A DNA stretch of 64,000 nt. Source: Spiroplasma litorale (GTDB lineage: Bacteria > Bacillota_I > Bacilli_A > Mycoplasmatales > Mycoplasmataceae). Both the position numbers and the translations under genes were made by a program. The notes beneath the pieces were generated by a model. The model worked only from the letters and a program-made list of their open reading frames with translations, was not told the DNA's origin and ran no database searches. The stretch covers positions 744,001 to 808,000 of the forward strand of contig NZ_CP012357.1 of assembly GCF_001267155.1 (NCBI RefSeq), in the 5' to 3' direction. Each line of letters starts with the position of its first letter. Position 1 is the first letter of the stretch. Below, piece after piece: positions 5,839 to 43,739 of the stretch.

Positions 5839-6504
5839 TTATGAAATTAAAAGTTTCTGAATATTATTTTTTATAATATCTGCACTAGTGCCTAATAATA
5901 ATGTTTGATTTATAAAAAAGTTATAACCACATTGTTTAATATGTTTTTTTATCTCTGAAATTTTAATTTTTTTGTTTGAATATTTGCCTTGATTTATATC
6001 TATATACTCATTATCTTTATTTTCAATAAATTGAACCAAATATGCAACTATAATCGAATAATATAATTTTTTACCATGTTTTGTTAGTTTAGTAAAGTTG
6101 TCTACAAGTGTTTTAAAAAGATTTTTTAAATACATATCAATGTCAAAATTTTTATTCAATAATTGACAAATATTTATATCATAAATAATACTATAATTAG
6201 AGTTCTTTTTAATTATAAAAAAAGCTTCTAAAACATCAAGAAATTGTCTCATTGTCGATCAAGAAACACCATTTTCAAAAAAAGTTAATGAAGGAGTTAC
6301 ATCAAAATTATTACATAAAATTTTGTACCTATTATTTAAACTAATTAAATTTATATAACTTACCCTATCTGAAGATTTAATAACACTAATTTTTTCAAAA
6401 AAAGTTTCAATAATTGCAGGTATGTTTGTTCCCATTTTTCAAAATTGATAGTCATTATTATTTTTGAATAAATCAAGAATTTCATTAATTTCTTTTAATT
6501 TCAT
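5839..6504 (-). CDS. Uncharacterised protein of the defence-like cassette
   Basis: A 221-residue protein that I do not recognise. It begins MKLKEINEILDLFKNNNDYQF, is rich in Lys, Asn and Ile, has no convincing membrane segment or signal peptide, and contains Trp-coding TGA. The chosen ATG at 6504 lies 6 bases after AGAGG; an ATG at 6510 abuts that site directly and is less likely. The start lies inside the last 20 bases of the DUF262 gene, so the two are translationally coupled, which suggests a joint function. It is the last gene of a four-gene run (helicase, methyltransferase, DUF262 protein, this). It could be a small nuclease, sensor or partner subunit; nothing in the sequence decides. 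Confidence 0.7.
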
Positions 6505-8980
6505 ATACATCCTCTAAAAGTATTTGTGCTAATTTTGCACTTCTATTATCAATATCGTTGAATGTAAAACTATCAATTGTTATTAAATTTTCATCATTAA
6601 TATTAAATGGTATTTTTGCCAATCTAGAAAAAGTATTAGAGTAATTTTGTTTCTTTTTATAAAATGATATATTTTTTAGTTCAGAGTTATTAGGTGAGTC
6701 TAATAATAAATAATTACCAATTTTATCTAAGCATTCATTATATTTATCTTCAAATTTACTATCTCATTTTTTACCATTTGTTAACATATTTTTTCATTCA
6801 TCAGTTAGTTTTTGCGGCATTATATGTTCTACTGTCATCTTTTTATAGATAACGCTTTGGTCAGCTTTTGTTTCACTATTAATTCAATATTTTTCAATTC
6901 TAGTTAAAAATACTAATGATAACGCGTTATTTTGAACTTTATTATTTTTAAATGAATTAATTATTTCATCATAAGTTGGTAACTTATGGTCATTTGGAAT
7001 TAGATATTCTAAAATTGATTTATTAGAAATTGGACTTTTTCCAGCAAATCAATTTCTCATTAGTTTTGGTAGATTTGATTTAAAATCATTTGAATACTGA
7101 TATGATTTTAAATAATTTATAAGTCTTACAAAAATGGTTTCTTTAAAAGATTGTCCTGTACCTCTTGTTTGAACTAACAAAGAAGATCATTTTTCAATTT
7201 CAAAAAGAGCTTCTCTTAAATATTCTTTGTTATAAAAACTTATTTTTTTTTCATCTTTATTTCAGGCTTTATCAGAATACACATCTACTAAATAAAAAAC
7301 TAAAACTGTAAAATCTTTATGGCTAATATTTTTAAAAATATCTCCGAATTCTGAAAATTCGCTTGCCGAATTCATATACATACCAACTTTATCTACTCTT
7401 AAAGTTTTATATATATAAAAATATCTACCTAATTCAGAGCATAGCTTATAATATTCTTCTTCATCTATATTATGTTGATCATAAAAAGATTTAAAACCTT
7501 TTAAAAGACTTCTTTTATTTTTTTGGATTTTAAATTTTAAGGCGTCTTTTTTTATAGACTTTGTTGCATTCAAATAAGTTATATAGTTATACAAAAACTC
7601 TTCATATTTTTTATTAGCCTCATCTCCTATCAAATCTGTTTTAGTTGTACTTAGTCTAAAATATTTTGAAAATTCCATCACAAACTCCTTAGATTTTGAT
7701 CTAAATAAATTTATCTCTACGGTATTAAAAATATAATTTTTGATCATATCAAAAGTATCTAAATCTTTTCCTTTAGAGTTTAAATTTTCAAAAATTTCCA
7801 TTTCGTTATTATTGTCATTACTATCAAACGTTATACAAGAAAATATGAATTTATTATAATAAAATTTATATAATTTTTCTAAATCTTCAAGACTTTCACT
7901 TTTAAGTTCATTATAAAAATACATGTAGTTATCATAAACTTGATTTTTTGAAAGTTTGATTCTTATTTCTTCATCATAACTTGCTCTATTATTGTATCCT
8001 CTAAGTATTATTGAAATACCTTCTGTTGTTGATTTTCTATCCGTTGTATAATTTTGATATTTTTCATTAATTCTTTTTTCTGAATAAACGCCATTATCTT
8101 TGTAATCAAACAATCATAACAAATCATCAGGCATTTCAAAATTAATATTATTTTCTTCTAATTCTTTTCTTTTCATTACATCAAATAAAGCCTTAAATAG
8201 GATTAACGAAGTTGTTATTCTCTGTTGTCCATCAATTAATTTTATTTCAAATTTATCTCTGTCATTTGGAACATTTGTGTATTTGCAGGCAATTGAGCCA
8301 AAATAGACAAGTTCATTTGAATTCATTTTATCAATAATTTGTTTTAGCAATTCAGAGCATTCATCTATAGTTCAACGATAGTCTCTTTGATATGGTGGAA
8401 TAATAAAAAATTTATTTTTATCTAAAACCAAATTTCCTACAGATACCTTTAATATATCAATTTGCGGGTCATCAAACTCTTTTACGTTATCGTAGTTTAG
8501 TCTTCCTTTATTTGATTTTTCAAAATAAATTTCTTCATCAAATGGCTTAGATTCAACATCTTTTTTTTCAAGCTCAAATATAAAATAACTAAATATTGAT
8601 TTTAAATGTTTTAAAATAGTTATGCATTGATTAAACGATGGGGCAATAGTATCCAAGTAATTATTGTTATCACCATGAACTCTTGCATTTCTTTCATAAA
8701 CTATATAGTCAAGCAAATTTGATATTCTATAGTCGATTCTTTTGTCTAATCTAGATCTAAAATATTCCTTTAATTCACCAACTAATTTTCCTAGGCCTAA
8801 TTTACTATTTTCTAATCCTAAAATATTTTTAAAATACTTTTCTAAAATAGTATAAGAATTAATTAATACTGCATTGTAATCAGATTCAATAATAAAACGT
8901 TCTTCAATGATGCTTAGTTCTTCTAATATTCACTTATACTCATAAAAATCATTCATAAAATTATAATTTGTACTAATCAT
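6485..8980 (-). CDS. HEPN-like / DUF262 / DUF1524 protein (GmrSD-like)
   Basis: An 831-residue protein with three recognisable parts. Residues 1-120 form an alpha-helical region ending in YERNARVHGD, which carries an R-x4-H pair (Arg97, His102) like HEPN ribonuclease/toxin domains. Next comes a DUF262 domain with IPPYQRDYRW (about 193-200) and the hallmark LIDGQQRITTSL (DGQQR at 250-254), the motif of GmrS/SspE-type NTP-using nucleases. Near the C-terminus EHIMPQ (Glu718, His719) is the HNH-like signature of DUF1524 (GmrD). GmrSD proteins and relatives (SspE, BrxU) are anti-phage, modification-sensing enzymes; the HEPN-like front is not a usual part. The start overlaps the methyltransferase stop by 8 bases, so the two are coupled. 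Family assignment of the middle and end is firm; the HEPN call is inference. Confidence 0.85.
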
Positions 8981-10289
8981 TATTTTTTACCTCATTATCA
9001 ATATCATTAATTTTTTTAAATATCGAGACTAAAACATTTACCGTTATCGAATTACCTGCTTGCCTATATAAAACAGCTTTTTTAATGTTATTTTTTATTA
9101 CTTTGTTAAAGTCTTTTTCATCAAAACCCATTAGCAAGTAAGTTTCTCTGGGTGTTAAAAATCTATAATTTGATTTATGTTTTTCTTTTAATAATTTAGA
9201 TTCTCTAATATCTATTATTCCTGCATTTGGATGTCTATCTTGTTTTGTTGTAATGGTTCGACACAACTGTAAATAATAACCGTCATTTTTTTTTACATAA
9301 AGTTTATTATTCTTTTTTATTGTTAGCGGATATTCATAATTTTTTTTAGTATATAAGATTGGATTTTCACAGTACATCCTAATCCTACTTGGAGTGTTAT
9401 TAGGAATTGCATTTATCGCTTCATCTTTATATATATTATTCGTATAATTAGTTTTTAATATTTCGTTCAATGATTTAATTAAATTTAGTTCTTTTGAAAC
9501 ATTTTGAAACTTTTCATTCTCAATAATTATATTTTTTTGGTTTAAAGTATCAGGGAATAAATTATCATTACCCAATACACTAATCGCATAAACTCTTTCT
9601 CTTTTTTGAGGAATACCAAATTCTAATGAATTTAACAAATATGTTTGAGTATTATAACCTATTGTTTTTAAAAAAATTAATCACTCAATGTAGTCTTCTT
9701 TGTGTTTTTCAGAAATCATATTTTTTACATTTTCTAATAATAAATATTTAGGAAGTTTATTAATTTTTTTTAATTCTTTTAAAATTCTTTCTATTTCTCA
9801 TAGCAAACCACTTCTAGTTCCACTTCCTTTTTTCATACCTTGATTAAAACCATGAAAGCTACCAGCAACAGACAAGTCTTGACATGGAAATGAATAAGTA
9901 ATTACATCAACATCTCCAACATTTTTAATTAAATCTTCTCCCTTTAAATCAACTATACTTCCTTGATTATTACAAGCTTCATAAGAACTATATAGTAATT
10001 CTCTTGTATTTCTATCTAATCTATTTAAAAACTTTTTATCAATTGGTTTTTTACCATCATTGGAGTGTGTAAATTTTGATAAATATTTATTTATTTCACT
10101 ATCTTTTAAATTTATTGCTCTATTTTCATTATTGTTATGCATTGCATTATAACTTATATTGGCTCAAATATCTCATTCACTTGTACCAACAACTTCAAAA
10201 TCAATTTTCATTTTATTTTTTAATATCTTTAGAGCCTTATTTTGTGCTCCTATACCCGCAAATGCTTCAAAAACTTTCAATTTCGACAT
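8973..10289 (-). CDS. DNA cytosine-5 methyltransferase, M.SssI-like
   Basis: A 438-residue C5 methyltransferase. Motif I is FEAFAGIGAQ near the N-terminus, motif IV is YSFPCQDLS with catalytic Cys136, motif VI is LLENVKNM, motif VIII is QKRERVYAIS (about 228-237), and the end has LTPRETYLLMGF and QAGNSITV (motifs IX-X). The segment GMKKGSGTRSGLLWEIER after motif IV closely resembles the CpG enzyme M.SssI of Spiroplasma, as I recall that sequence; the target-recognition region between VIII and IX differs, so the recognised site cannot be stated. The start follows AAGGGG. Upstream, a poly(A)16 tract sits in the likely promoter, so its expression may vary. It is flanked by a helicase-nuclease and a DUF262 protein, as expected for the modification arm of a restriction cassette. 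Confidence 0.93.
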
Positions 10290-10293
10290 AAAA

Positions 10294-10343
10294 AAATTAC
10301 CCCTTAAGGATAATTTTAGTTTTTTTTTTTTTTTTGCAAGAGT
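10294..10343 (-). promoter_or_regulatory. Putative methyltransferase promoter with poly(A)16 spacer
   Basis: Between the helicase stop and the methyltransferase start the minus strand reads TTGCAA, then the rest of an uninterrupted run of 16 A (plus-strand T run at 10320-10335), then CTAAAATTATCC, then AAGGGG before the ATG. TTGCAA resembles a -35 box and TAAAAT a -10 box, so the homopolymer would set their spacing (15 bases as sequenced). This is an inference from box-like sequences. Confidence 0.45.
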
Positions 10344-13300
10344 CTAGAAAGCTTTCTTTAATTTTAATAATAATACAAGTTTTTCTTCTTCAATATTAGA
10401 CTCATTTTTTCTAATAATTGTTTTTCTTTCTATTACTTTTTCAACTTTACCAATAAGTTTTCTATTTCTATAAGTTTTTTTCTCTGAAATTTTATCATCA
10501 TTGTAAAATAAATAAGTTTTATATAGATCAAGATTTAAAAATTCTGCTTGTTGATCATTTAATTTTTTTGGACCTACTTTTCAAGAATTTGGTGTATCTC
10601 AATAAAAAATATCATCTACATCATCATAGTAATTTCCACTATCTGAAAATAGGTTTGTTTTTGTTCTATTTGCATCTATACAAAACAATTTATCTTTTTC
10701 ATTTTTTATAATTCCTTGAACACCTTTTCCCTTAAATCCAGCTTCGTTAATGTTTATTGAACACAAAGCTTGCATTTGCGAATGATTCAGTTCTACTCCA
10801 ATAAAACTTTCAATGTTATCAGTTAATATATTATTAAGATTTTCTTCATTTTTTAATTTAAATTTCAATAAATACAAAACTTCTTTGATAATCAATTTAT
10901 TTTTTTCATTAAATATTAATTCCAATGCTAAATTAATATCATTGTAGTAGATGTCTTTTTTATTTGGACTATGATAAAAAGATGCTAAAATTATGTATTT
11001 TATAAGTTTGCTTTTAGGAATTCTTTTTTCAGATAAAAATATAACGATTTCTTCAAGTAATTGTTTAATATTTGGAAATAAAAATGCTTTAATAACTGCT
11101 AAACTTTTTGAATTTTCATTGAAAAAAGTTTTATTTTTTGACAAATAAAAATCATATATATCAACATTTTTTTCTGTGAAATAATTTTCATATTCTTCAA
11201 ATGTTCCATCAGCGCGATATTCTTCTAATATGGACTTGAATAAATGATTTTTTTCATAGTTTTTTAACTTATCAATAAAATCTTTTTTTTCTAAATTTGT
11301 TAAATGAAAGTTTGAATTACCAGGTAAATAATTATTTATTGAATTTATCGCTTTTTCTAGACAGTTAACTTTTATATTATTAGTTAAATGTATAAATGGT
11401 AAAAAAGGATTAAAGTTATTGTTTACATTTAAATCAACATTATTAACAAAATCATATATTTGTAATTTTTTATCTAAGCTTTTTCTAAGTCCTCTACCTA
11501 ACTGTTGCAGATAAATTATTAAAGAAGTTGTTGGTCTTAAAAAGAAAATAGTATCTACTTCTGGTATATCTACACCTTCATTTAGTATATTCATAACGCA
11601 TAAGTAGTTTATTTTTGCTTTTTTAAATAACTCTATATTTTGATCTCTATTTTTATTATTTTCAGTAGTTATGTAACTACTTCTTTCTCCTTTTTCTGAT
11701 AAAAATGCAGATAATTCTTTTGCATTTTGAGTTGAAGAGCAAAACAAAATTGCTCTAATATCTTTTCTTTGTTTACCAATTCTATTAATGATTGTATTAT
11801 ATATAAACTCATATCTTTTTAAATTATTAAATGTTAATTCAAATTTTTTATCTTTAATACTTAAGTTTTCCAAGTTGATTGTGTCATCTTTTATGAAATA
11901 ATAATCAAAATCAGATAGCATTTCATTTTCAATTGCATCATATAATCTTAATTCACAAGCATGTTCATAATCAAAATATTTATTTATATTAACTCCATCA
12001 GTTCTTTCTGGGGTTGCTGTCAAGCCAAAAACTTGTTTTGAATTATTTGCAATAAATTCAAAAACTTGTTTAAACGTTTTAGCTTCAACGTGGTGAGCTT
12101 CATCAAATATAACAAATTCAAATTTTTTGTTTTTAAATCTTTCTATTCTAAAATATAGTGTATCTTTAGTTATAAATATAAAATTCTCATTTTGAATATC
12201 TACTTCATTGTTTCTTCCATCATACAAATCAATACCAAAATCAGGATCATCTAAAATATTTCTAAATGTCATCATTGCTTGATCAAGAATTTCTTTTGAT
12301 GGGGCAATGTAAATGAAGGAATTTATACTTAACATTTTAACTAATTTTTTATAGATAAATGCCATAGTTGCTGTTTTACCAGTACCAGTCGCCATAACTA
12401 GTAAATGTTTTTTCTTATTTGATTTAATTCTATTTATTATTTCATTAATTATTTTATTTTGATAATCAAATGGTATTAATGCTTTGTTTTTATTGTAAGT
12501 TTTTGAAAATATAGTATTTATATTGTTATTCTTATCATATTCTTGATCAAAATTATCCTCATTTAGTTGTTGTAAAGTAATTAATTCCTTAATTCTTTCT
12601 TCATCATAAACTCTAATGAAATTTTTATCATTTATAAGATTGTTAAAATCTCATAAAAACTGGTCAATTATTTGCGGTTCTTTAAACTCACTAATTTTTA
12701 TATTATATTCTTTACCTGCTATCTGACCTGTTTTGGTAAAATTACTGCTTCCTATATATAAAGTGCTAAACTTATTGTTTCTTTTAAAGAAATAAGCCTT
12801 AATGTGTAACCTACTATTTGTTCTTTCAAATAAGTTTTCAATGTATATATTAACTTTATCTTTATATTTTTTTTCAAGCCTTACAAGCTGTTCTATTGCT
12901 AAAAACTTTGCTCTACCATCATAAGTAGTTGTAATAATTATCATTTTAAATAATTCATTTTTATTTTCTTTAATAAAATTTTCTAACTTATTTACCATTT
13001 CAGCACTAATAAATGGTGATATTATGTAAACAAATTCTGAACTTAAAAATTCTTTTTCAAGGTTATTTCATACTTTTTTAATAATTAACTCATTTTTACT
13101 TAGGTTATCTAATTTCACTTGATTTTTAGTATCAAACTTAATCGCCTTTATTGATGTAAAATTTTCAGGTACAACAATATTTAATATATTATTTAAAAAA
13201 TTAATTTTATCATTTATATTATTTAAGTCTTTTAAATGATCTCTTAAATATTTATTTAATTGTCCTAAAAGCCAATCATTGTCAATGTTGTCAATAATTT

Positions 13301-13379
13301 CTTTATCATCCTCTTTAAACAAATTAACATTTTTATTTGTTAATAACAAATCCAAATGCCCTTTCTTTATTTTTTTCAT
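10344..13379 (-). CDS. PLD-nuclease / DEAH helicase / DUF3427 restriction-like protein
   Basis: A 1011-residue protein. After an unassigned N-terminus, residues 110-240 form a phospholipase-D-type nuclease domain with HIKAYFF (His192, Lys194) and IGSSNFT (210-216). A superfamily 2 helicase follows: Walker A ATGTGKT (330-336), FDEAHH (DEAH 426-429), GLTATPER, and QQLGRGLRKS (about 625-634). The C-terminal 300 residues match DUF3427 in layout, including NHSQMQALCSININEAG and DTPNSWKVGP. Such proteins are ATP-dependent restriction factors; the PLD plus helicase plus C5 methyltransferase combination recalls the NgoAVII and CglI systems, where PLD and helicase are separate chains. It is the first gene of the cassette, read away from the mannitol operon. 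Many TGA Trp codons split it in standard code, but the frame is continuous. Confidence 0.88.
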
Positions 13380-33884: not shown

Positions 33885-34198
33885 AAAATATTATTTATTT
33901 GCATAAAGTAAATTTATTAAAATATATTTATTTTAAAAATATTTTTTCAATATGTAACCTAAGTAGACCATTTATCCAAAAATAGATGGTTTTTTTTATT
34001 CATTATATTTAATTAATTTCTAATTTATTGAGTTAATAATAAGTGGTTTAAAAGTTTTATGAAACCACAATTAAAAACATTTATTTTAACTAAGTGTTAT
34101 TTTTTTTTATAGAATTTACTTTAAAATATCTATTTTTCATATAAACGTTTTTTTAATAATATATATAAATATTTTATTAAAAAAAAAAAAAAACGAAC
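33885..34198. other. Intergenic region between a lipoprotein and IS copy 2
   Basis: No gene is supported here. It holds the terminator at 33967-33997, an A15 tract at 34179-34193, and the left target triplet AAC (34196-34198) of IS copy 2. Confidence 0.6.
33967..33997 (+). terminator. Terminator of lipoprotein copy 1
   Basis: ACCATTTAT pairs with ATAGATGGT (one G-T pair) and eight T follow. The stem resembles that of the lac operon terminator at 18594. Confidence 0.75.
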
Positions 34199-34222
34199 TG
34201 AAATTGTCAATTAAAATTGACA

Positions 34223-35386
34223 TTAAAAAGATACTTTCTCCATACGAATTTCGTATGGAGTTTTTTTATGTTTTAATGAAGGTCTAACATAATTATAAAA
34301 CTCTATATAGTCTGAGATAATTTTATAAATATTTGAATGATGTAGTTCTTTTACTTTATATGTATATATACATTCATTTTTAAAAGTTCCAAAAAAAGAC
34401 TCACAGGCACCATTATCTGGTGAATTTCCTCTTCGTGACATAGAAATATTTATATTATTAGTTTTACATAATCTTTCTCAAGTTTCATTTGTATATGGTG
34501 ATCCTTGATCTGAGTGGATTATCTTTGGTGCACCTCTTTTTTTAATGGCGCTTATTAAATTTGTATGACATAATTTATTATTAGGACTAACCGATAACTT
34601 TCAATCAATAATTTCTGAATTAAACAAATCCTTTATAACAGATAGATATACGTTTCCATTAATAGTTTTTATATAAGTTACATCTGTTACTCATTTTTCA
34701 TTTATATTTTTAGATTTAAAGTTTCTATTTAGTAGATTTTCAAATCTTAATGGACCTGATTTATCATAGTTTGGAACTTTCTTTTTCTTCACTGCTTTTA
34801 AACTCATTATTTTCATATATCTATAAACAACTCAAGGGTTTAATCTTTCTTTAAAGTATTTGTTTAAAAATAAAGTTATCATATTATAACCATATCTTTT
34901 TTTAAACAAGTAAAAAAGGCATCTTATCTTAATTGCTAAAATTCTATTATAATTTTTATACTTTGGTTTTCCGTTTTTAAGTCATTTTAAATATCCATAC
35001 CTTGAAACTTTTAAATATAAACAAGATAATTTCAAAGAAAACATTCTTTTAACATTAAAAATGGCGAAGTACTTTTCCTTAGTTGTCTTCGCCAAATGCT
35101 TTTTTAAAGCTCGTTCCAGTTTCAAAGCCTCTCTTAATTCTTCAATGCTCATATCATCAGGTTCTTTAAAAATTCAATCATGAGATTTAAATTTTTTGAT
35201 ATTTCCTTTTGCTTGTGTTCCGCTACCTCATTCAAGAGCGCCTTCACCTTTAACTTTTACCTCTGATTTTCATCTTTTAATTGTGCTAGTACTAATATCA
35301 AACTTTAATGCCGCATTTAAAATACCAATTTTTTTTGATTCATTAATTATATTAAGTTTTTCATTTTTTGTTCATTGTTTTGCCAT
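34223..35386 (-). CDS. IS3-family transposase, single continuous frame
   Basis: A 387-residue DDE transposase read in code 4. The N-terminus (FDISTSTIKRWKSEVKVKG) is the helix-turn-helix normally encoded by orfA. The catalytic part normally encoded by orfB has WVTDVTYI, HSDQGSPYT and PDNGACESFFGTFKNE. I followed the frame codon by codon across the element and found no stop and no frameshift; the usual AAAAAAG slip site is present but a -1 shift there reaches a stop after a few codons. So OrfA and OrfB are fused. It keeps the normal C-terminus lost in copy 1. Confidence 0.92.
34238..34267 (+). terminator. Palindrome plus T run inside IS copy 2
   Basis: The same 11-base stem with single-base loop as at 3709, followed by seven T on the plus strand. 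It would stop transcription entering the element from the left while encoding the transposase C-terminus on the other strand. Confidence 0.65.
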
Positions 35387-38783: not shown

Positions 38784-38943
38784 ATTTCATTTTACAACTT
38801 TTATAATTACTTTTTTAATACTTTAATAAACTTAAAATATGTTTTATATATAAAAAGTTTTTGGTTTTTCAAATAAAAAGGTTTTATATAATATTTTGTT
38901 TATAATCAACCTAACCACTTAATAGTTGTACAAAGGAGAGATT

Positions 38944-39711
38944 ATGAAAAAAAGTATAAAAGTATTAGGAGCAACATTATCAGTTTTAGGTACATCTGCA
39001 TTAATATACCCTTTAACTAAATTAGGCTCACAAGAAAATAATTCAGTATTTGCTATCAATGAAAGCGAATTAAACAACAATAACATATTTAACAACTATG
39101 ATAGAAGCGAAATAAATCTAAGTTTAGTTGGTGAATTTGTTGAAGGTAAAGGTATTTATGGTTTGTTTAACCCAGCAATTGTTAAAGGAGCAATAACTAT
39201 TGATCCAGGAAAACAAAATTCACAAGAAGAAGTGTTTAAAGCAACAAAAGTTTATACAGAAAATTTATTAGGTATTGTCAAGACATTATTTGGTTATGAC
39301 ATTAAAATTGATACACTAGTTGAAATGATAAAATTTGAATATTATTCAGATGAAAATGGTCAAACATTACAAAACAATGATAAAGAAGATATAAAATCAT
39401 TTAAAATTTCAATTATACCAGGCAAAGAAGATACAATTGATGGTTTACATGTTTATGGAAACACATTAATAAAAACAAAACTTAAAACTTCATTAAGTGA
39501 TGCAATAAAAGTAAGAAAAATAAATGAAAAAATACTTAAGGAAGCACTCTTAAAACAAAGAGTTGCAGTTCTTAACAACTTGGTTAGTTTAGATAGAAGT
39601 ATTGAAATAAAAGATTTTGATAAAGATAACAAAACTGCACAAGTAATTGTTGGTAATGGATTTAATAATGCTTATTATGATGATCAAAAAATAGTAGTAA
39701 CATTTAAATAA
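38944..39711 (+). CDS. Secreted protein of the PGKED family
   Basis: A 255-residue protein with an N-terminal signal (SIKVLGATLSVLGTSALIYP) and no lipobox cysteine, so it is secreted or membrane anchored. The C-terminal half has FKISIIPGKEDTIDGLHVYG, KVRKINEKILKEALL and a beta-rich end. The same C-terminal pattern appears in the broken lipoprotein at 60056 (TAKPGKEDDIDGVHCKG), and a 3-prime fragment of a second copy lies at 41642. I chose the ATG at 38944 because AAAGGAGAG lies 4 bases upstream. Function unknown. Confidence 0.75.
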   Translation: MKKSIKVLGATLSVLGTSALIYPLTKLGSQENNSVFAINESELNNNNIFNNYDRSEINLSLVGEFVEGKGIYGLFNPAIVKGAITIDPGKQNSQEEVFKATKVYTENLLGIVKTLFGYDIKIDTLVEMIKFEYYSDENGQTLQNNDKEDIKSFKISIIPGKEDTIDGLHVYGNTLIKTKLKTSLSDAIKVRKINEKILKEALLKQRVAVLNNLVSLDRSIEIKDFDKDNKTAQVIVGNGFNNAYYDDQKIVVTFK

Positions 39712-39735
39712 GAATTATATATATTTCATAAATAA

Positions 39736-39766
39736 AAAAATCTTCATATAATATATGAAGATTTTT
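39736..39766. terminator. Bidirectional terminator, block A of the duplication
   Basis: AAAAATCTTCATAT pairs with its complement over a 3-base loop. It separates the secreted protein gene from the convergent lipoprotein and is repeated with small changes at 41847. Confidence 0.8.
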
Positions 39767-39783
39767 AATTATTTATATTAGTT

Positions 39784-41493
39784 TTATGCTATAAATTCTG
39801 TAATTTTAATTGTTAGTTCGACTTCATATGTACCATAAACTATTTTAACTTTAGTTTCAACGTTGGCTTTAATTGATTCTACTTTTGTTGTATAGTAACT
39901 TGCTCCTGCATTTCCTAAAAAATTCAAAATAAAATTATTTGAGTTTACATTTGTAGGTTTTACTAAATTTTCTGAATTAGTGTAGGCCCCTGCTGCATTT
40001 GTTTTAAATGAAATTTCTTTTTCTTTCTCATATGATACAACCATTGTTTTAGTTTGCTCATCATAACTTGTGTTATTATCGCTTTGACCTTCAAATTGAA
40101 TATAGTTTAAAAAATATTTGAATGCAAGGGTTGTTTGTCCATAATAGTTTTTTGATGTACTTTTAGCCTTGATTTTTGCTTCTGTTGCAGTTGGTTGATT
40201 AACAAATTCAATATCATCACTAGTTATTTTATATTTATTATTTTTTTCATTAAATACTTTAATAATAAGATCTAAAGTTATGCTAGATACAGCACCATTA
40301 ATAGTACCTAAATTTTTTTCAATTTCTGAATTTGCTAAATCTGTTGTTCTAGTTTCAACATATTTTAATGTAAAAGTTGCATTATTTTTTAATAATTTAC
40401 TTGTTGAAACTGAATTCACCATTATTGAACCTGCAGATTCTGGTGTAGCTTCTTTAAATCCACTGAATGTATAATCTGCGTTTAATTTTGCTCCTGGAGA
40501 AAGTTTTGTAATTTCTTCAGTTGCAGCAGTTTTTGCATCTTCTTCTTTATTAGATTTTGGAGACAATTCTTTTCCAATTGTATTCAAATCTTTTTTTGCT
40601 TCTAATACAGTTACTTTAAAAGTAACATCTTTAGCACCATTATATTTAAGAGTAATTGTTGCTTCTCCTGCTTTAACTGCTTCTAAAGTTAATGTAAATT
40701 TAGCTTCTTCTTTAGTAGAAGATGGAGCAACTTTAACTTTAACAACTTCTTCAGTAGATGATGCTGCTGTTAAAGTTTTTTAACTTTTTGAGTTAGCAAC
40801 AGTTACACTTATTGGGTCTATTTTTTCACCCATTTGGATTTCTTTGTCCCCAACAGCCCCAATTGTAGTTGCTTTTGTTTTACTATATGTTTGTGTTAAA
40901 GTAGCATTACCAGTATAATTAGTTGATGTTGTTTTTGCTTTTAATTTAGCTTGACTAGCAGTTGGATTACCGTCAAATTCAACATCATCTGATGATAAGT
41001 TAAGATCAGAGTTTTTTGTATTAACTTGTTTTAAAACTTCATCAATTGTTGGTAAGTCGCCAACCCCTTCATATACTCCTAAATCCTTAACTTTAATTAC
41101 ATTATTTAAATCTTCTTTTTGTGGTGTTTCACCATTTGATGTAACTTTAACTGTAAAATCTTTTGCAGCATCCCCATATTTAACAGTTAATTTTGCTGTT
41201 CCTTCTTTTAAAGCTGTTACAATAACATTAAATTTTCCTTCTTTTTTTGTGTCTTTTTCAAGAGATGATTTTCCTGTAACGATTGTAGTATCACTTGAAA
41301 TAACGCTAATTGAAGCATCATCAATTGGATTTATAACTGTTACTTCAATAGTTTTTGATTCCTCAACTTTTAATGTTATATCATCAATATTGTTGATAAT
41401 AGTTTTTTCTTCACTAGTCCCACATGAAATGACAGTAATGCCTGTTGTTGCAACGATCCCTGTTGCAGCTAAAATACTTAATAATTTTTTCAT
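39784..41493 (-). pseudogene. Ig-like lipoprotein, copy 1, one nonsense codon
   Basis: A 569-codon lipoprotein frame. Signal peptide and lipobox end in VISC (Cys24). An Ig-like segment follows (TLKVEESKTIEVTVINP through GTAKLTVKYGDAAKDFTVKV), then the shared 75-residue module (VKDLGVYEGVGDLPTIDEV through STNYTGNATLTQTYSK), a second Ig-like segment and a beta-rich C-terminus ending VELTIKITEFIA. It is interrupted once, by TAA after VANSKS, where copy 2 at 43611 has a Glu codon; the frame is otherwise open to 39784. The truncated product would be about 238 residues. Its promoter holds a poly(A)16 tract (41542). Confidence 0.85.
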
Positions 41494-41513
41494 TTTTAAA
41501 TTTATTCCTTTCT

Positions 41514-41563
41514 GTTGGATAACCAACTAATACAATTATACTTTTTTTTTTTTTTTTGTTAAA
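41514..41563 (-). promoter_or_regulatory. Promoter with poly(A)16 spacer and leader hairpin
   Basis: Read on the minus strand: TTTAAC (41558-41563, -35-like), then C-terminal spacer of A16 plus G (17 bases), then TATAAT (41535-41540), then the hairpin GTTGG-TTAT-CCAAC (41514-41527), AGAAAGGAA and the ATG at 41493. The homopolymer fills the promoter spacer at the ideal length of 17, as in the phase-variable vlp promoters of Mycoplasma hyorhinis. Confidence 0.7.
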
Positions 41564-41641
41564 AAAGTATAAATAATATATAAACAAAATATGATAAATT
41601 GTATTAAATATTTATAAAAATAAAAAAATTAAGAAAAAAAC

Positions 41642-41818
41642 ACTTAATAAAGCACCATTAAAACAAAAAGCTTTATTTCTTAATAACTTGGTTGGTCTAG
41701 ATTGAAGTAATGAATAATAGATTTAGATATAGATAACAAAACTGCACAAGTAATTGGTGTTATTGGGTTTAATAACGCTTATTATGATGATTAAAAAGTT
41801 GTATTAATATCTAAATAA
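41642..41818 (+). pseudogene. 3-prime remnant of a PGKED-family secreted protein
   Basis: This stretch matches bases 39538-39711, the end of the secreted protein gene (ALLKQR, LNNLVGLD, DNKTAQVI, FNNAYYDD), with an internal TAA-containing gap and other damage. There is no 5-prime part. It marks the left edge of the second block of a tandem duplication. Confidence 0.8.
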
Positions 41819-41831
41819 AAAATTATATTTC

Positions 41832-41877
41832 AAAAAAAAAAAAAAAAATAATCTTCATACAATGTATGAAGATTATT
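41832..41877 (-). terminator. Terminator of Ig-like lipoprotein copy 2, with A17 tract
   Basis: AATAATCTTCATAC pairs with its complement over a 3-base loop (41847-41877). On the minus strand a run of 17 T follows (plus-strand A17, 41832-41848). It corresponds to the terminator at 39736. Confidence 0.8.
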
Positions 41878-41893
41878 AATTATTTCATTAATT

Positions 41894-43611
41894 TTATGCT
41901 GTAAATCCTGTAATTTTAATTGTTAGTTCAAGTTCATATGTACCATAAACTATTTTAACTTTAGTTTCAACATTCGCATTTATTGATTCTACATTTGTTG
42001 TTCAATAACTCACTCCTGGGTCTCCTTGAAATTTTAAACTAAAATTATCTGATGTTACATCTGTTGGTTTGATTTTATTAGCTTCACTTCATTATCAAAT
42101 GTACCTTTTGCATTTGTTCTAAATGAAATTGTACCTTCTTTTACATATGATACATTCATTGTATTTGTGTCTGCATCATAACTTGTGTTATTAGCACCAT
42201 CATTTCCTATTTCAATATAATTTGAAAAATATTTAAAAGTTAAATTGATTTCACCATAATAATTTTCAGATGTACTTTTAGCTTTTATTGTTCCTCCTGT
42301 TGCATTTGAAGTTAGCAAATCAACATCGTCCTTAGTAATTTTATATTTACTATTTTTTTCATTAAATATTTTTATAACCATATCTAAGGTAGCAGCAGTT
42401 TCTTTCCCATTAATAGTACCTAAATCCTTTACTATTTCTGGGTTAGCCAAATCCGTTCTTGTTTCAACATATTTTAATGTAAATATTGCACTACTTTTTA
42501 ATAATTTACTTGTAGAAACTGAATTAACTTTTAATGAACCTGCAGCTTCTGGAGTTGCTGCTTTAAATTGATCAAATGTATAATCAGTATTTAGTTTTGC
42601 ACCTGCTGAGAATTTTGTAATTGCTTCAGTTGCAGCAGTTTTTGCATCTTCTTCTTTATTTAATTTTGGAGATAAATCTTTTCCAATTGTATTCAAATCT
42701 TTTTTAGCTTCTAATACAGTTACTTTAAAAGTAACATCTTTAGCACCAGTATATTTAAGAGTGATTGTTGCTTCTCCTGCTTTAACTGCTTCTAAATTTA
42801 ATGTAAATTTAGCTTCTTCTTTAGTAGAAGATGGAGCAACTTGAACTTTAACAATTTCTTGTGTTGATGAAGTTGCTGTTAAAGTATTTTCACCTTTTGA
42901 ATTAGCAACAGTTACACTTATTGGGTCTATGTTTTCACCTATTTGGATTTCTTTGTCCCCAACAGTACCAATTGTAGTTTCTTTTGTTTTGCTATATGTT
43001 TGTGTTAAAGTAACATTACCAGTATAATTAGTTGATGTTGTTTTTGCTTTTAATTTAACTTGACTAGCAGTTGGATTACCATCAAATTCAACATCAGTTG
43101 ATGATAAAATAAGATTTGAGTTTTTTGTATTAACTTGTTTTAAAACTTCATCAATTGTTGGTAAGTCGCCAACCCCTTCATATACTCCTAAATCCTTAAC
43201 TTTAATTACATTATTTAAATCTTCTTTTTGTGGTGTTTCACCATTTGATGTAACTTTAACTGTAAATTCTTGTTTAGCATCCCCATATTTAACAGTTAAT
43301 TTTGCTGTCCCTTCTTTTAAAGCAGTTACAATAACATTAAATTTTCCTTCTTTATTTGCATCTTGTGCTAAAGAAGATTCTCCTTTAGCAATTGTTGCAT
43401 CACTTGAACTAACACTAATTGCAGCTCCTGTAACTGGATTTTTAACTGTTACTGCTACAGTTTTTGTAGCTCCAACTTCTAATGATACATCTCCAATTTT
43501 ATTAATAACAGTACTTTCATCAGCCTTAGCGTCATCTCCACATGAGATTACAGTAGCACTTGATGTTGCAACTAATCCAGTTGCAGCTAACATACTTAAT
43601 AATTTTTTCAT
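41894..43611 (-). pseudogene. Ig-like lipoprotein, copy 2, C-terminal frameshift
   Basis: The best-kept member of the family: signal peptide with Cys24 (VISC), an Ig-like segment (VSLEVGATKTVAVTVKNP through AKLTVKYGDAKQEFTVKV), the 75-residue module, a second Ig-like segment (NTLTATSSTQEIVKVQVAP through DVTFKVTVLEAKK) and the C-terminal part. It is open for 518 codons to a TAA at 42055. The expected last residues (IKPTDVTSDNF through TYELELTIKITGFTA) follow in another frame to 41894; one missing base around 42085-42090 explains it. The protein may still work without the last 60 residues. Signs point to surface display; role unknown. Confidence 0.85.
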
Positions 43612-43632: not shown

Positions 43633-43646
43633 GTTGGAAAACCAAC
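43633..43646 (-). promoter_or_regulatory. Leader hairpin of Ig-like lipoprotein copy 2
   Basis: GTTGG-TTTT-CCAAC lies just before AGAAAGGAA, as in copy 1 (41514). In the third paralogue (50716-50727) the stem is GTTGT-ACAAC, so one pair has changed on both sides. A TATAAT box lies a few bases upstream. Confidence 0.6.
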
Positions 43647-43739
43647 TAATTTCATTATAAACTAATATATTTATATAGGAGGAAATTATTTTAAAATATA
43701 AAAAAATACTAATAATTATATTATTATTATTTCAAGTTT

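Follow-up and report, generated by a model that had tools for sequence, protein, structure and literature searches.

What does a run of sixteen adenines do when it fills the spacer of a lipoprotein gene promoter? Such a run lies in the window (the whole 64-kb stretch of DNA analysed here), upstream of a lipoprotein gene on the minus strand (hereafter copy 1) that has a tandem duplicate (copy 2). A sequence-only reading of this stretch had compared the arrangement with the vlp genes of Mycoplasma hyorhinis, which switch through a poly(A) tract in their promoters. Judging from comparison with related genomes, we put at about 60% the probability that the tract is a slipped-strand switch or rheostat, acting through the promoter spacer of a spiralin-domain lipoprotein gene. 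The evidence for this is drawn largely from other promoters of the genus; several features of the locus itself point the other way.

The promoter and gene of copy 1

The core of the copy 1 promoter reads TTAAC-A16-G-TATAAT on the minus strand. Direct reading of the upstream region gives ACTTTTTTAAC-A16-G-TATAAT-TGTATTA-GTTGG-TTAT-CCAAC-AGAAAGGA...ATG, and a longer rendering from promoter to start is TTTTTTAAC-A16-G-TATAAT-TGTATTA-GTTGGTTATCCAAC-AGAAAGGAATAAATTTAAAA-ATG. The tract is exactly 16 A long (41542..41557, minus strand) and, as the sequence-only reading had proposed, fills the spacer between a -35 box and a -10 box. The -35 box is TTAACA (41557..41562, minus strand), which agrees with TTGACA at 5/6 positions and shares its final A with the start of the tract; the -10 box is a perfect TATAAT (41535..41540, minus strand; 6/6). 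This combination, with a 16-nt spacer, tops a consensus scan of the region at 11/12 matches. The register suggested earlier, TTTAAC with a 17-base spacer, is possible but weaker, and the G that had been placed with the A16 in the spacer is present but separates the tract from the -10 box (at 41541) rather than preceding the tract. The predicted leader hairpin does follow TATAAT, as GTTGG-TTAT-CCAAC (41514..41527, minus strand). It starts at approximately the expected transcription start and has a modest folding score (-6 kcal/mol, z -1.3); for 5' hairpins in lipoprotein leaders in general there is a weak trend only (p 0.08). The stem GTTGG/CCAAC is kept in three genes, namely copy 1, copy 2 and the best homologue from another species (locus L046 of genome G006), with differing loops.

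The stretch from the -10 box to the ATG is common to these same three genes, and the promoter is counted as real for this reason. L046 agrees at every base with the sequences flanking the tract, TTTATACTTTTTTAA on one side and TATAATTrTATTAGTTGGTT on the other, with GTT in place of the tract and TTGTTT lying exactly 17 nt before TATAAT. Because the flanks match and a -35-like hexamer stands at this distance, the comparison shows TATAAT upstream of copy 1 to be a true -10 box, with the A-run sitting in, or displacing, a working spacer. By the same alignment the tract of copy 1 is lineage-specific, having been either gained here or lost in the G006 lineage, and conservation of a poly(A) spacer between orthologues was not found at the lipoprotein locus itself.

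Copy 1 is also interrupted. TGA encodes tryptophan in this organism, a code that together with the spiralin domain and the relatives suggests a Spiroplasma. Codon 238 is an in-frame TAA (40782-40780), in agreement with the nonsense codon noted before. It closes a frame of 237 codons (40780..41493, minus strand) that begins with an LP_plasma signal peptide (NCBIfam NF038029, E 2e-8). The frame stays open for another 331 codons beyond the stop (39784..40779, minus strand), and this remainder holds the spiralin domain (PF05215, E 8.9e-17). Copy 2 (42055..43611, minus strand; ATG at 43611) is 76% identical and has both signal peptide and spiralin domain (PF05215, E 7.9e-17), its frame ending about 50 codons earlier than that of copy 1, i.e., it is cut near the 3' end. 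Between the copies dN/dS is 0.59 before the stop and 0.42 after it, which argues that the part behind the stop was constrained for most of the divergence and that the nonsense codon is probably young. A short N-terminal product had been proposed, and a lipoprotein of 237 aa that lacks the spiralin domain is indeed what the sequence predicts, but the gene that would make it is probably decaying. Codons 100-300 of the two copies are almost identical and both ends have diverged, a pattern that suggests gene conversion.

The earlier statement that the duplicate at 43611 is without a tract was correct: TATAAT is present (43654..43659, minus strand), and upstream of it there is neither a homopolymer nor a good -35 box. 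Since copy 2 has no tract, the two copies can differ in their mode of expression. Its leader hairpin (43633-43646, minus strand) has the copy 1 stem and a different loop. The intrinsic terminator of copy 2 (41832..41877, minus strand) consists of a hairpin (41877-41847) followed by T17, seen as A17 on the plus strand. The paralogous terminator of copy 1 (39735-39765) has T7, so that the pair is an example of a jump from a short to a long run. A fragment at 41640-41815 (plus strand) resembles the 3' end of the gene at 38926-39711 (plus strand), and for this reason the lipoprotein pair seems to have arisen by tandem duplication of a two-gene unit (38926-41815).

Lengths of A/T runs in the window, genome and genus

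Is a length of 16 peculiar to this promoter? A/T runs in the window reach 9 and then none is found until 15-17; about 0.06 runs of 16 are expected per 64 kb and two are seen, so A16 is far beyond the normal distribution, which ends at 9-10. The genome as a whole contains 57 A9, 5 A10 (both counts slightly low, as the search pattern also required a non-G at the far end), none of 11-14 and 20 tracts of A15-A18. Across 20 genomes of the genus a single exact A12 compares with 256 exact A16, counted whatever the context and including some in repeated insertion elements, e.g., in G019. Run lengths in the genus are thus bimodal, with 11-14 almost absent and 15-18 common, and the same distribution holds in promoters, terminator T-tracts and the ends of insertion elements. 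Because long tracts also serve terminators and adjoin insertion elements, the length of 16 is not tuned to the copy 1 promoter but is a genome-wide tendency. A slippage equilibrium as the cause of the two modes is our guess. An assembly or sequencing artefact, in the tract length or in the nonsense codon, would be in keeping with the error-proneness of homopolymers. It is very improbable: the genome is a single contig of 1,225,519 bases (99.5% complete), 20 genomes assembled independently show the same lengths, and homopolymer errors would not leave a gap between 10 and 15.

Insertion-element sequences also lie beside such runs. In G019 three copies of a 1.3-kb element (L199, L200 and L201), 98.7% identical, have exactly A16 at both ends, and one of these tracts is a terminator T-tract on the other strand. 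That all six are A16 points to tight control of length rather than wide variation. In the genome studied here the element end TGAAATTGTCAATTAAAATTGACATT occurs at 25 places (e.g., 34179-34224 of the window), mostly with a short A-run some 8-12 nt upstream; at two of the 25 the adjoining run is A15/A16. This looks like an insertion element with a target preference for A-tracts.

The idea that all 20 A15-A18 tracts of this genome are promoter spacers was rejected, as it fails for most of them: two are terminator T-tracts, two adjoin the ends of insertion elements and one is inside a degenerate transposase frame. Only two of the 20 are in promoter spacers with a -10-like hexamer (p = 0.12), which is no more than chance, and this genome alone gives no support for a vlp-like reading.

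These observations could also be accounted for by a neutral tract, in which runs past a threshold slip to a mutational equilibrium near 16 and one of them arrived by chance in the promoter of a decaying gene, with no regulatory role. The shared length distribution and the scarcity of A12 beside A16 are what it would lead one to expect. Three of the points that speak against a switch at copy 1, namely the small share of tracts in spacers, the tractless closest homologue and the nonsense codon downstream, are also in its favour. We nevertheless regard it as rather unlikely, since it leaves unexplained several features of other promoters in the genus (below), and because a spacer run that slips alters the spacing whether selected or not.

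Homopolymer-spacer promoters across the genus

In the genus, 16 of 42 TTGN-A(n) tracts with n at least 11 have TA[TAG]AAT within 0-4 nt, where about 1.3 would be expected; not all 16 are independent, as several are orthologues, and about seven separate genes remain when each orthologous gene is counted once. TTGN-A(n) per se is about as frequent as its mirror image (42 vs. 41), and the enrichment is confined to tracts joined to a -10 box. The pattern A12-N0-3-TATAAT matched 15 distinct tracts, spread over 10 of the 20 genomes; across the order it had 120 raw matches and its reversed form 18. Many of these runs begin right after TTG, TTGC or TTGT, i.e., inside the -35 box, and the spacers of the genus promoters range from 14 to 19 nt. 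A gene for an FtsX-like permease has a poly(A)-spacer promoter in four species (A16-A19). Among relatives, three lipoprotein genes (one at L053, two in L060) have poly(T) spacers of T16-T18, in the arrangements TTGAC-T16-AATA-TATAAT, TTGC-T17-A-TAAAAT and TTGC-T18-A-TAGAAT. Runs of at least 14 are in marginal excess upstream of lipoprotein genes (6/49 vs. 2/67, p 0.058), and a search of named genomes for the lipoprotein gave no match. Of the tracts in promoter spacers 5/16 are A18 or longer, compared with 1/26 of the others (p 0.02), and lengths there reach A18-A20; the variance of tract length in promoters and in other tracts did not differ significantly (Levene test). By this comparison homopolymer-spacer promoters are a recurrent class in the genus, with the same architecture at orthologous genes and spacers around 17.

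The most widely kept case has a representative in the window. A second A16 spacer, TTGC-A16-C-TAAAAT (tract 10320..10335, minus strand), lies upstream of a gene for a C5 DNA methyltransferase of 438 aa (8973..10289, minus strand; PF00145, E 1.5e-53; TIGR00675; related to M.MpeI, 4dkj), which is located between a helicase/PLD restriction-like gene (10344-13379) and a GmrSD-type gene (6485-8980). Orthologues with 58-67% identity are present in ten other genomes, and in 8 of the 11 species, that studied here included, the gene has a promoter of the type TTG[CT]-A16..18-TAAAAT with spacers of 15-19. One further such promoter precedes a second methyltransferase of G003. The G011 orthologue provides a natural control, with a tractless TTGATT-17-TAAAAT in the same place, and the methyltransferase promoters of Mesoplasma and other named genomes outside the genus contain no A-tract. 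Such conservation of the promoter design raises the possibility of a phase-variable methylome. The N-terminus of a methyltransferase of G009 (L149) looks like that of M.SssI, a likeness which suggests that the genus contains the source organism of that enzyme.

It is these promoters that a neutral tract does not explain: the spacer tract of the methyltransferase in 8 of 11 species, that of the permease in four, and the excess of tracts with a -10 box. Another proposal is that the A-tract is a fixed structural element, a rigid or curved spacer or a UP-like element that raises promoter strength and whose length is kept. The clustering of most lengths at 16-17, near the optimal spacing, agrees with such a role. 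We consider it improbable, since orthologous methyltransferase promoters range from 15 to 19, one species has no tract, and poly(T) occupies the same position at other lipoprotein genes.

How, then, would a slipped-strand switch or rheostat work? The copy 1 promoter is of the sigma-70 type, and its -35/-10 spacer would be a slippage-prone poly(A) tract. Replication slippage would add or remove one A at a time and shift the spacer between about 15 and 18 nt, A16 giving a spacer of 16 and A17 a spacer of 17. RNA polymerase would be efficient near 16-17 and poor outside this range, so that expression would differ among cells of one clone, as an ON/OFF switch or, if the range of lengths is narrow, as a rheostat. 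The orthologous promoters with spacers of 15-19 look like frozen states of this slippage, and the lack of MutS-dependent mismatch repair would favour it: MutS_V (PF00488) is absent in 21/21 genomes (that studied here and its relatives) and present in 11/14 control genomes by profile search. On this reading the tract would vary within a population, the variation would alter transcription and the cell surface would be affected. At the copy 1 locus this would amount to a lineage-specific switch driving a lipoprotein gene whose 237-aa product lacks the spiralin domain. As a counterpoint, variation may be mostly from 16 to 17, both good spacings, because lengths are held tightly at 15-18 everywhere and all six tracts of the G019 elements are A16. 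With most tracts of the genus at 16 or 17, slippage may usually grade expression instead of turning it fully on or off.

A broader and more tentative proposal, which we would not yet call probable, is that replication in this genus pulls every long A/T run to about 16, such that a run caught in a spacer would become a self-tuning switch without selection on length, since a length of about 16, with one or two further bases, comes near the best promoter spacing. The methyltransferase switch, kept in at least eight species, may on this proposal drive a phase-variable methylome.

Relation to known switches and wider meaning

In M. hyorhinis, vlp expression is switched by a poly(A) tract of the promoter region (Citti and Wise 1995, as summarised in PMC10502178), and the comparison drawn in the sequence-only reading holds for the anatomy: in both, the promoter region of a mollicute surface lipoprotein gene contains a poly(A) run, with slippage as the driver, here as a proposal. 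It does not extend to the family as a whole. Every vlp member has the tract, whereas here one of this genome's lipoprotein genes examined has it; it is missing from copy 2 and the rest of the lipoprotein genes examined in this genome, and from the G006 homologue. The gene is of the spiralin type, with a single, putatively switchable copy and a nonsense codon, and the organism probably lives in an arthropod or plant rather than in a mammal. A vlp-like reading of the copy 1 promoter is plausible from its layout. Since one vlp feature, the tract in every member, fails and the key functional features are drawn by analogy, the locus is better assigned on its sequence to the general kind "homopolymer-spacer promoter" than to the vlp systems.

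The vmm gene of Mycoplasma mycoides SC likewise has a repeat within its promoter spacer, whose changes in length alter the -35/-10 spacing (Persson 2002, as given in PMC10502178), but that repeat is a dinucleotide and the present one a mononucleotide run. In Mycoplasma agalactiae a phase-variable CpG methyltransferase has a poly(G)/(GA) repeat inside the coding sequence (PMC9465063). There, as here, a C5 methyltransferase gene is paired with a slippage-prone repeat, but the repeat described here is poly(A) in the promoter spacer. Both lipoprotein copies resemble the spiralin (PF05215) lipoproteins of Spiroplasma in domain and LP_plasma signal peptide, and copy 1 is unlike the others in having its domain behind a stop codon. 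Searches of the openly accessible literature turned up nothing on poly(A) promoter switching in Spiroplasma.

To our knowledge spiralin has not been reported to have a phase-variable promoter. Among mycoplasmas exposed to adaptive immunity, slipped-strand switching of promoters is textbook knowledge. Spiroplasma-like bacteria are apparently associated with arthropods or plants, and hence free of antibody pressure. If the present reading is true, genus-wide switches without such pressure would lead one to ask what the cells evade or hedge against. The conserved methyltransferase would be the best test case for promoter switching across the genus, and the gap between tract lengths of 10 and 15 would tell how slippage behaves without mismatch repair.
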